Shown in pieces: positions 31,505-34,871 of a stretch of 64,000 nt of DNA. Source of the stretch: a virus. Under the pieces are notes generated by a model. That model saw only the letters and a list, made by a program, of their open reading frames with translations. It had not been told where the DNA came from and did not search any database. The stretch covers positions 1 to 64,000 of IMG/VR virus record IMGVR_UViG_3300021964_000024. One strand, written 5' to 3'. The translations under genes were made by a program, and so were the position numbers. Every line of letters starts with the position of its first letter. Within the stretch, counting starts at the first letter, position 1.

Positions 31505-32016
31505 TGAAAACGTACAAGGGAATATACAAAATTAAAAATCCCCAGAAATATAGAGGGGATGCAGATAATGTTGTCTACCGTTCAGGGTGGGAACAGAAGG
31601 TCATGATCTGGGCAGACACTTCTCCGCAAATAGTGGAGTGGTCTAGTGAAGAGGTTATTATACCATACTTATGCGAAACAGACAAGAGAATGCACAGATA
31701 TTTTGTAGATTTTTTAGTACGGTTCAAAGATGGTCGCACGGTATTGGTCGAAGTCAAACCTGCAAAAGAGACATTACCACCCAAATCAGGTAGGGGTGTT
31801 GCTCGTCAGAGAGTACTCAATGAAGGATTGACATATATAAAGAACGTGTCTAAATGGAATGCGGCAAAAGAATTCTGTAAAGACCGTGGTTGGCACTTCG
31901 AAATCTGGACAGAGAATGAATTACGTAAGATGGGACTACTACCCAAACCCATGGGTAAGAAACCCTTCAAACCATTGAAGAAGATGAAACCCTACAGGAA
32001 ACCTAAGAAAAAGTGA
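31504..32016 (+). CDS. 4: Head completion protein gp4
   Basis: 170 residues from ATG 31504 (179 from an in-frame ATG at 31477). Closely follows T4 gp4: NPQKYRGDADNVVYRSGWEQ, SPQIVEWSSEEVIIPYLCE, YFVDFLVRFKDGRTVLVEVK, WNAAKEFCKDRGWHFEIWTE. The Glu/Asp-x(n)-Glu-x-Lys pattern in FVDF...VLVEVKP is the PD-(D/E)xK-like nuclease core of the family. gp4 is needed to complete filled heads before tail joining. The C-terminal ~30 residues are very basic (Lys/Pro-rich). Overlaps the next gene by 4 nt. Confidence 0.85.
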   Translation: MKTYKGIYKIKNPQKYRGDADNVVYRSGWEQKVMIWADTSPQIVEWSSEEVIIPYLCETDKRMHRYFVDFLVRFKDGRTVLVEVKPAKETLPPKSGRGVARQRVLNEGLTYIKNVSKWNAAKEFCKDRGWHFEIWTENELRKMGLLPKPMGKKPFKPLKKMKPYRKPKKK

Positions 32017-32591
32017 ATAGAGTATTTTTTATCGGTATGAATCGCATTGCGACAAAATCGTTTTCGCATCTATTTAGAGACTCAGGATACAAATCATTCC
32101 ATTACAGTTGTATGGACACAATGACAGGTCAGTCCATTATACTTGCACAACAGATGCAGAACAATCTGGATGAATTTAGACCCGTCATGCACGGTATGGA
32201 CAAAGCACACGTCTATAGTGACATGTTCTGGCACAGAGAAAATGTCTGGATTGATGGTGTTAAGATGTATCGTGAAATACAGAATCAACACCCAGATGCC
32301 TATTTTATTTTACAAACAAGGGATATGGACGCATGGTTACTTAGTAAAGAAAACCATAAAGGGGGAGCGTACATAAAACGTTGCATGGACTTTCACGGAG
32401 TCAATCAACAAGAAATGATTGATTGGTTCAAGTACGACAGAGAAAAACACGAAAAGGCAGTGCGTAAACATTTCCTTGGATACGATAAGTTCCTTGAGTA
32501 TGACCTTGACAATGACCCTATCACTAAATTGATCGATTTCTTGAAACCAGAATTTTTCTTGCAGGAAAAGTACTGGGGACACTATAAATAA
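32013..32591 (+). CDS. Sulfotransferase-like protein
   Basis: 192 residues. The N-terminus VFFIGMNRIATKSFSHLFRD resembles the PAPS 5'-phosphosulfate loop of small sulfotransferases (G-x-x-R/K-x-x-T-[KT]-S). A later strand and loop (YFILQTRDMDAWLLSKENHK) fits the 3'-phosphate motif, where Arg-Asp precedes the binding Ser. It is translationally coupled to gp4 by a 4-nt overlap, which is an odd place for a metabolic enzyme. Substrate unknown: a virion glycan or a host surface sugar would be plausible given the sugar-modifying genes at 44-60 kb. Assignment is by motif only. Confidence 0.6.
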   Translation: MNRVFFIGMNRIATKSFSHLFRDSGYKSFHYSCMDTMTGQSIILAQQMQNNLDEFRPVMHGMDKAHVYSDMFWHRENVWIDGVKMYREIQNQHPDAYFILQTRDMDAWLLSKENHKGGAYIKRCMDFHGVNQQEMIDWFKYDREKHEKAVRKHFLGYDKFLEYDLDNDPITKLIDFLKPEFFLQEKYWGHYK

Positions 32592-32628: not shown

Positions 32629-33213
32629 ATGTCAGACATCTTTAACAGATTAAGTATTCAAGCGTTTCGTTCGGGGATTACTCCACGTACCGAAGAATCA
32701 CGTAAGTGGTTCTTGAAGAAAGCGCAGAATATGAGAAGCATCAATCGTGAAGCGTTGATGCAAGAAGATCCTCTCAAGTCGAGATCTAAACAGATCGTTG
32801 GCGGGATGTTCATGTTCGGATATGATCCCAAACACAAAGACACACTACCATACTATGATGTGTTTCCGTTAGTGATAGTACTTGGCCCGGCAGAGGGAGG
32901 ATTCTTAGGATTGAATCTACATTACCTACCTCCAAAGTTGCGTCTTTTATTCTTCTCTAACTTGATGGATATTCAGGGTAGTAAGTTGAGTGAAAATGAT
33001 AAGTTCAGTTTGACTTATCGTACACTAAAGAAAGCGTCAAACTTGAGATACTTTAAACCGTGTATTAAGCACTATTTGAATGCTCAAGTAACAAGTAAGT
33101 TCGCAGAAGTACTTGCACCAGAGTGGGAGATTGCAGTGTTCTTACCAACCGCACAGTTCCGTAAACGTTCTAGTGCAAAAGTATTCTCAGATAGTAGGCA
33201 GATGATAGGATGA
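32629..33213 (+). CDS. Conserved tail-module protein, unknown function
   Basis: 194 residues. The N-terminus is helical and basic; the core reads GGMFMFGYDPKHKDTLPYYD, VFPLVIVLGPAEGGFLGLNL, HYLPPKLRLLFFSNLMD, a pattern I associate with a conserved protein of T4-like and jumbo myoviruses without an assigned function. First gene of a rightward tail operon behind tandem late promoters. Overlaps the next start by 4 nt. A tail or neck completion factor is possible from context. Confidence 0.7.
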   Translation: MSDIFNRLSIQAFRSGITPRTEESRKWFLKKAQNMRSINREALMQEDPLKSRSKQIVGGMFMFGYDPKHKDTLPYYDVFPLVIVLGPAEGGFLGLNLHYLPPKLRLLFFSNLMDIQGSKLSENDKFSLTYRTLKKASNLRYFKPCIKHYLNAQVTSKFAEVLAPEWEIAVFLPTAQFRKRSSAKVFSDSRQMIG

Positions 33214-33941
33214 GTTTTAGTATAGAGACACTGAAGGCACAGATTACTCAGTCGGGTGGTCTTGCAATGAAGAATCAGTTCATGGTAGAACTACCACAAC
33301 TTGAGTCGTTCCCTATGGACATTCGTGAACTGGATGTCATGTGTCTGACTACATCATTGCCTGGCAGACAGGTAATGTCGCAAGAAGTTACCGTGGGTAC
33401 GACACAAAGAAAAATTGCAAATGGTTTTGCAACCACAGATATGCAGATGACTTTCTTAGTTGCAAATAACCACATGATACGTCAATACTTCGAAGCATGG
33501 CAAAACGAAGCACATAACCAAACAGAGAAAACTGTAGGGTACTTCGAAGATTATACATATGACGTGAAGATACATACAATAGAAAGAGGACTGAGACTTG
33601 CCTTGTTTAAAAAACAACTGGGTTTCATGGACAACGTACCTAGTGTTATCAAGAATAGACTTCCTGATCTAGGGCCGATTGATCTTTCTCAGGGTGAGAT
33701 AGACTTAGGTGCATCTTTCCCTATGAAACAAACATACACGTGTACACTATTTGAGTGTTACCCGACTTCGTTACAAGAACAAGCGTTGAGTAGTTCGGAT
33801 GAAGGATACATGGAACTCACCGTCCAACTCTCTTACACTGATTTTGAAAGTAAAGCAGGTGAATTTACTAGTGAAGGTGAATCTTTTGGTCGAGGCGTTG
33901 CTGGCGCTGTAGGCGGTTTGATTGGCAGAGCACTTGGTTAA
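33210..33941 (+). CDS. Tail-tube-fold protein (gp54/gp19 type)
   Basis: 243 residues. The N-terminal half looks like a tail-tube beta sandwich: AMKNQFMVELPQLESFPMDI, CLTTSLPGRQVMSQEVTVGT, MTFLVANNHMIRQYFEAWQN. It ends MELTVQLSYTDFES plus a Gly-rich tail. Longer than the T4 tube protein gp19 (163 aa) and shorter than gp54 (320 aa). Because it sits directly before the chaperones and tape measure and next to gp48/gp53, a gp54-type tube initiator is my first choice; the main tube protein is the alternative. Confidence 0.6.
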   Translation: MSFSIETLKAQITQSGGLAMKNQFMVELPQLESFPMDIRELDVMCLTTSLPGRQVMSQEVTVGTTQRKIANGFATTDMQMTFLVANNHMIRQYFEAWQNEAHNQTEKTVGYFEDYTYDVKIHTIERGLRLALFKKQLGFMDNVPSVIKNRLPDLGPIDLSQGEIDLGASFPMKQTYTCTLFECYPTSLQEQALSSSDEGYMELTVQLSYTDFESKAGEFTSEGESFGRGVAGAVGGLIGRALG

Positions 33942-33972
33942 ATTTAATTATTAATATATTGGAGAACACATT

Positions 33973-34680
33973 ATGGCATTACCCAAGTTAAACGAGTCCC
34001 CGAATTACAGTACGACAATTCCGTCTACGGGGCAAAAGGTGACGTTCCGTCCATACCTAGTCAAAGAAGAAAAGGTATTGATGATTGCGTTTGAGACAGG
34101 AGATCAGAACCAATCGCTTCAGGCGATTTGTGATACACTAGAAGCGTGTATCTCTGAGGAAATTGATGTAAAGAATCTTTGCACATTTGACATTGAGTAT
34201 CTGTTCACACAGATTCGATCTAAGTCAGTGGGTGAGACAGCAACCATCACTCTTCCTTGTTCTGAATGCGACAAGAGAACAGAGGTTGGTGTTTCATTAC
34301 AGGATATCAATATCGATGTGGGTGACGTTGAAAACACAATTCAGTTGACCGACAGTATTAGTATTCAGATGAAATACCCTTCGTATGCACAGGTTCTCAG
34401 TCTAGATCTCGCTAATGCGAACGACACTGAAGTAGGATTCAACATGATTGCAAAGTGTATCTCTGCAATTTTGACTGAAGAGGAAAGGATTGATACCAAA
34501 GATGTCAAGGAAGATGAAGTCATGTCATTCATCGAACAGATGACTGCGGATCAGTTCAAGAATGTGACACAGTTCTTGCAGGACATTCCAACGTTGAACC
34601 AAGACGTTGAATATATCTGTAACAGTTGTGGTCATGAAAACAAAACCAGACTTAAAGGGATTAACGATTTTTTATCATAA
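33973..34680 (+). CDS. 26: gp26-like tail assembly chaperone (G-like)
   Basis: 235 residues of the T4 baseplate/gp26 family: FRPYLVKEEKVLMIAFETGD, FDIEYLFTQIRSKSVGETAT. Two CxxC pairs (Cys96/99 and Cys216/219) look like a zinc-binding ribbon. Preceded by a clear GGAG ribosome-binding site. The gene ends in the heptamer TTTTTTA at 34668-34674, in the register for -1 slippage, leading into the next frame. Its position immediately upstream of the tape measure is that of the lambda G gene. Confidence 0.8.
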   Translation: MALPKLNESPNYSTTIPSTGQKVTFRPYLVKEEKVLMIAFETGDQNQSLQAICDTLEACISEEIDVKNLCTFDIEYLFTQIRSKSVGETATITLPCSECDKRTEVGVSLQDINIDVGDVENTIQLTDSISIQMKYPSYAQVLSLDLANANDTEVGFNMIAKCISAILTEEERIDTKDVKEDEVMSFIEQMTADQFKNVTQFLQDIPTLNQDVEYICNSCGHENKTRLKGINDFLS

Positions 34681-34871
34681 ACCTTTCTCACGATAATTTG
34701 GTCAATTACTATAAGACCAATTTTTCGTTGATGCAACACCACAATTATAGTTTGGCAGACATTGAAACAATGATGCCGTGGGAAAGGGAGATTTATGTCG
34801 CTATGTTAGTTGACTGGGTGAAGGAAGAGAATGATCGTATAAAACAAGAACAGATGAAACACGGACATTAA
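34665..34871 (+). CDS. gp51-like extension reached by frameshift (T-like)
   Basis: Open -1 frame relative to the gp26-like gene, with no ATG until 34731. Translated after the slip it reads IINLSHDNLVNYYKTNFSLM, then QHHNYSLADIETMMPWEREI, then YVAMLVDWVKEENDRIKQEQ, ending MKHGH. The motif ADIETMMPWEREIYVAML is typical of short downstream partners of tail chaperones, where such residues fold as helices. The predicted fusion is 299 residues (234 from the gp26 frame plus 65). If translated independently from ATG 34731 it would be only 46 residues and would lose the conserved start. The boundaries give the open frame, not a start codon. Confidence 0.7.
   Translation, partial: RFFIINLSHDNLVNYYKTNFSLMQHHNYSLADIETMMPWEREIYVAMLVDWVKEENDRIKQEQMKHGH
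34668..34674 (+). other. Candidate -1 ribosomal slippery site
   Basis: Zero-frame codons GAT TTT TTA TCA TAA contain T-TTT-TTA, a canonical X-XXY-YYZ heptamer. After a -1 slip the reading continues TTT TTT ATC ATA AAC with no stop for 65 further codons. The previous stop in the -1 frame (TAA, 34662-34664) lies only 4 nt before the heptamer. A 6-bp inverted repeat (TTGGTC 34698-34703, GACCAA 34715-34720) lies downstream, though at a longer distance than typical stimulators. Confidence 0.7.

Follow-up and report, generated by a model that had tools for sequence, protein, structure and literature searches.

Atkins et al. (2016, PMC5009743) describe the long-tailed phages as conserving the G-T frameshift, 'except T4'. 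The tail-assembly chaperones of T4-like phages were identified by Vladimirov, Gautam & Davidson (2022, Virology 566:9-15), a study to which two later papers refer (PMC10885494, PMC12846349). As cited there, the short and the fused chaperone have separate genes in some T4-like phages (PMC10885494), and T4-like TAC-N genes possess poly-T -1 slippery sites (PMC12846349). It is our own reading, from these citing papers, that the T4-like TAC-N and TAC-NC of that study are the gp26/gp51 family; to the extent that the citing papers relay it, gp26/gp51 had been connected with tail-assembly chaperones in print by 2022, and that link is not new. The value of the present analysis is limited by that publication, and what it may add is evidence for selected hairpins, an extension of the arrangement to jumbo phages, and a tetramer-only variant in Ackermannviridae.

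The locus described here lies in a 64,000-nt stretch (hereafter the window, meaning the whole stretch) of a 105.8-kb viral record from IMG/VR. A gp26-like gene, the single match to PF12322 in the record, sits between a tail-tube-family gene (33210-33941; phrog_45, 6.8e-33) and a probable tape measure (Table 1). In profile searches the gp26-like ORF matches PF12322 at 6.2e-58 (196.5 bits, against a curated cut-off of 24.5) and phrog_150 at 3.8e-60. The first-pass annotation had named the next gene, which begins 3 nt past the extension, as the tape measure; its position and its phrog matches agree with this, but the best tape-measure family is hit weakly (1.4e-5) and we grade the assignment as probable only. 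Elsewhere in the window, an ORF with a Sulfotransferase_4 domain (32013-32588; 9.3e-11) lies between the DNA end protector gene and a head-closure gene that has a TnsA-like domain.

The gp26-like ORF ends GAT TTT TTA TCA TAA, which places TTTTTTA in exact slippery register. The nearest upstream stop of the -1 frame is a TAA at 34662-34664, its last base 4 positions 5' of the heptamer, and from 34674 the frame is open for 65 codons until it is closed by the TAA at 34869-34871. Register, upstream stop, 65-residue extension and 299-residue fusion (234 + 65) had all been noted in the first-pass annotation, and our recalculation returned the same figures. The predicted junction-spanning peptide of the fusion is …GINDFLIINLSHDNLVNYYK…. 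The second frame had also been called gp51-like, and its homology with T4 gp51 is borne out, though it corresponds to the C-terminal part and not to the whole of that protein; the phrog family that it matches is labelled 'baseplate hub assembly catalyst'.

Table 1. Features of the gp26/gp51-like locus (positions in the window)
Feature	Position	Strand	Evidence or remark
GGAG, Shine-Dalgarno sequence for gp26-like start	33961..33964	+	Sequence; duplex energy -6.4 kcal/mol
gp26-like gene, short tail-assembly chaperone (G / TAC-N), 235 aa	33973..34680	+	PF12322, phrog_150
AAAGGG, possible internal SD-like stimulator	34654..34659	+	8 nt upstream of slip site
Slippery heptamer T_TTT_TTA, X_XXY_YYZ register	34668..34674	+	Sequence and comparison
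-1 frame extension (T-like, gp51 C-terminal part), 65 codons + stop	34674..34871	+	phrog_634 1e-28; -1-frame pN/pS 0.147
Stem-loop, probable 3' stimulator	arms 34690-34703 / 34715-34728	+	Begins 15 nt past heptamer
Probable tape-measure protein, 721 aa	34875..37040	+	Directly 3' of chaperone; weak phrog matches

We consider it very likely, from comparison of sequences, that programmed -1 frameshifting joins the gp26-like gene to the gp51-like extension. The first-pass annotation had put forward the same interpretation, which is now supported by conservation of the heptamer, the fixed -1 relation of the two frames, selection on the -1 frame, a downstream hairpin and the correspondence of T4 gp51 to the whole fusion. 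It had also suggested looking for heptamer and split frame in related T4-like marine phages. Among 260 related loci drawn from IMG/VR and from named phages (86 lineages once near copies were removed), an in-register T_TTT_TTN lies 7-31 nt 5' of the gp26 stop in 258 loci and 84 lineages, while in the window's genes this motif occurs in register at only 3 of 18,783 codon junctions, just this one being near a gene end. The log10 probability of keeping the heptamer under each lineage's own synonymous codon usage sums to -44 with lineages assumed independent; the lineages are related, so this and our other P values overstate independence. The codon preceding the heptamer varies (D, S, N, A, R, H, T), its third base always being T. 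Nor does the protein force the heptamer, since the FF of T4 gene 26 is written TTC TTT. Heptamer-bearing loci include those of Synechococcus and Prochlorococcus phages, Pelagibacter phage Mosig, Methylophilales phage Melnitz, Stenotrophomonas, Pseudomonas pf16 and Ochrobactrum phages, the Straboviridae members Aeh1 and Vibrio QD01, and the jumbo phages KP13-7 and 121Q.

Loss of the heptamer with both proteins intact had been named beforehand as an observation that would speak against frameshifting. Ackermannviridae, phiA8-29 and two Vibrio phages are indeed without the full heptamer, but they retain a U_UUY at the same place, an open -1 frame and its PWH motif, and at many of the Ackermannviridae loci ATG is absent near the junction. 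U_UUY tetramers are low-efficiency -1 sites in E. coli (PMC4066793). Ackermannviridae and some Vibrio phages (L094, L275-L292, L090, L293 and L295 in our numbering of loci) may possibly frameshift on a tetramer only, which we offer as a lead. A scan of IMG/VR for relatives of the gp26 of Vibrio D532 returned none.

The extension lies in the -1 frame relative to gp26 at all compared loci, and is approximately 54-61% identical to its relatives in named cyanophages and pelagiphages. Across 13 sequences of the window's clade, the -1 frame alone is free of stops, and its pN/pS of 0.147 compares with 1.1 and 2.4 for the other frames. Judged by these substitution patterns, purifying selection acts on the extension as a protein read in the -1 frame.

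Immediately 3' of the slip site, RNA folding exceeds that of synonymous shuffles in which -1-frame protein and codon usage are both preserved (mean z -1.93, n = 83 lineages, p 3.6e-12). The excess is about zero in segments farther downstream, and the 40 nt upstream of the slip site show no structure relative to shuffles (z +0.1). By this comparison a hairpin 3' of the slip site is under selection, being stronger than synonymous codon choice allows. A consensus fold across 72 ungapped lineages gave no common structure, and an Rfam search gave no relevant match. Because the hairpins differ by clade, paired positions were counted clade by clade, leaving out clade C, in which the register of the fold differs between members. 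The stem of the window's clade has 12 pairs, with 92% of cells paired and 3 pairs doubly changed, and its covariation score was reached by 0 of 500 shuffles; each of the two further clades counted has at least one doubly changed pair. The window's own hairpin has a z of -2.9 against synonymous shuffles. Two of its traits speak against frameshifting: it is only moderately stable, and its spacer of 15 nt is longer than the roughly 5-9 nt that are typical between slip site and stimulator. Relatives of P-SSM2 carry a hairpin with arms GTATGGCTCA/TGAGTCATAC some 6 nt past the heptamer, relatives of S-PM2 one with arms TGTTCTATAA/TTATAGAACA, and another clade one with arms GCCTC/GAGGC.

We also observed, in L005 and its relatives (L100, L135-L181), that GAGTCATAC (ESY in the -1 frame), about 20-35 nt past the heptamer, has invariant synonymous sites in 20 sequences whose neighbouring sites vary; its pairing partner is GTATGGCTC, as would be expected of a hairpin under selection. 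Across 84 lineages, an SD-like element 5' of the slip site surpasses synonymous shuffles in strength (p 2e-6). In the window itself, the candidate element (-5.3 kcal/mol) is indistinguishable from its synonymous background (-5.6 kcal/mol), and is listed in Table 1 as possible only.

T4 itself has separate genes 26 and 51. Both proteins match PF12322 over its full length (8.8e-64 for gp26 and 3.9e-52 for gp51), and a profile of T4-type gp51 aligns collinearly with the window, positions 61-188 falling on the gp26-like protein (9e-8) and 200-243 on the -1 frame (1.5e-5). At the level of sequence, T4 gp51 is therefore homologous to the complete fusion, comprising a gp26-like domain plus the extension, and T4 gp26 corresponds to the short product. 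The earlier suggestion that T4 gp26 and gp51 are a G/T pair is right in seeing a chaperone pair, but the two equate with G and GT, as gp51 has a gp26-like domain of its own. In a tree of the N-terminal domain, T4-type 26 and 51 genes fall together on one side of a branch (95/92), adjoining the single-gene, heptamer-bearing Straboviridae Aeh1 and KVP40-like phages, though this placement is weak (66/92) and the branches are long. The simplest history, its direction being presumed, is apparently an ancestral frameshift followed by duplication into 26 and 51 in the T4 lineage. In RB43 (L095, 2501-3794), the two genes share a strand, the gp51-like one coming first and overlapping the gp26-like one by 8 nt, whereas the T4 pair is divergent.

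Predicted structures were compared with the PDB. The gp26 model (pLDDT 91.9) has as its highest-probability match the HK97 tail assembly chaperone 2ob9, hit on two chains (prob 0.84 and 0.77, TMt about 0.5 (0.52)), a weak match at E = 0.63. A T4-like gp51 was modelled as a natural fusion in place of the window's own; in it the extension forms a few helices behind the common domain, and no structural match was found for this model. Sequence searches of the PDB with gp26 and gp51 profiles gave no relative, and NCBIfam held no matching model.

Could the extension instead be a small gene in its own right (gp51), on which ribosomes reinitiate once they have terminated gp26, as several cyanophages are annotated? 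Separate gp51 genes stand in public records, S-PM2 and P-SSM2 have a start codon just past the gp26 stop, and in Stenotrophomonas phages, Vibrio QD01 and 121Q a start overlaps that stop as TGATG or TAATG. An ATG falls within the first 12 extension codons in 24 of 84 lineages, among them some cyanophages, where it comes soon after the slip site. A second gene with its own start and ribosome-binding site in relatives had been anticipated as evidence against a frameshift, yet all 24 of these lineages keep the heptamer, and their ATGs have poor Shine-Dalgarno pairing (median duplex energy -1.5, against -5.6 for gp26 starts). In 37 of the 84, ATG, GTG and TTG are all absent from these 12 codons, which specify conserved residues (LSHDNL.NYY). 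The first-pass annotation saw no start near the junction of the window: the first ATG is indeed codon 20 (34731), but a TTG stands at codon 9 (34698). Duplex energies of 0.0 and +0.3 kcal/mol, respectively, indicate no Shine-Dalgarno sequence at either, against -6.4 for the gp26-like start. Moreover, T4 gp51 is a natural fusion. We therefore regard a separate gene as very improbable, although some of the 24 ATG-bearing lineages could additionally make free T protein. Public gp51 annotations at L001:3055, L003:3079, L101:3265 and L096:3250 begin internally and cut off the conserved N-terminus of the extension, and in S-WAM1 (L002) and ACG-2014h (L097) gp51 is left unannotated.

If RNA polymerase, and not the ribosome, slipped on the T run, the frames would likewise be joined, and this is favoured by the presence of at least six T, with 8 T in C48C1. 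Six T is short for transcriptional slippage, however, and in most lineages the run is of exactly six, closed by C or A; selection acts both on codon register and on downstream RNA structure, and RNA-polymerase slippage needs neither. We give this explanation marginally less credence than a separate gene. A single gene split by assembly or sequencing error is scarcely conceivable, and is refuted by the comparative data, the same arrangement being found in 258 loci and in the reference genomes of S-PM2, P-SSM2, Aeh1 and 121Q.

Under programmed frameshifting, the majority of ribosomes would stop at 34678-34680 and release the 235-aa gp26-like protein (G / TAC-N). In a minority, the P- and A-site tRNAs would re-pair one base back on T_TTT_TTA, aided by the downstream hairpin, and these ribosomes would make the predicted 299-aa fusion (GT / TAC-NC), whose small extension has its homologue in the C-terminal end of T4 gp51. 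Coating of the tape measure would fall to the short form, and recruitment of tail-tube subunits to a few long forms. Slippage itself and the chaperone roles are what we infer, and for the slip rate, the product ratio and binding to tape measure and tail tube lambda serves as the presumed model. The most efficient class of sites in E. coli is H_HHU_UUY (PMC4066793); that the window's U_UUU_UUA is outside that class counts against this reading.

Several consequences would follow. In many public marine phage genomes, gp51 is mis-annotated from an internal ATG start or omitted. The slip site and hairpins offer ready test pieces for the tuning of slippage rate in phages of hard-to-culture bacteria. 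We also lean, with some reserve, towards a broader view in which gp26/gp51 frameshifting with a dedicated hairpin is ancestral across T4-like phages, jumbo phages and Ackermannviridae, the hairpin having been re-invented by lineage, the heptamer having become a tetramer in Ackermannviridae, and T4 having escaped through duplication into 26 and 51. Frameshifting of the gp26/gp51 chaperone would explain T4 as an apparent exception: T4-like phages at large would frameshift, and T4 would have substituted two genes.

Set against known systems, the locus resembles lambda gpG/gpGT in that a gene before the tape measure yields a short product and, as predicted here, a -1 frameshifted long one; it differs in its slip site, U_UUU_UUA as against G_GGA_AAG in lambda, and in its downstream hairpin. 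With the tail-assembly chaperones of Vandenendeviridae and Andersonviridae (PMC12846349) it shares, on our reading, a -1 frameshift at a poly-T motif ending TAC-N, though there the motif is GTTTTT and the phage families are others. T4 gp26 and gp51 are like the window's products in that both belong to PF12322 and gp51 is collinear with the putative fusion, but in T4 they are encoded by two divergent genes, each with its own start and with the heptamer absent.
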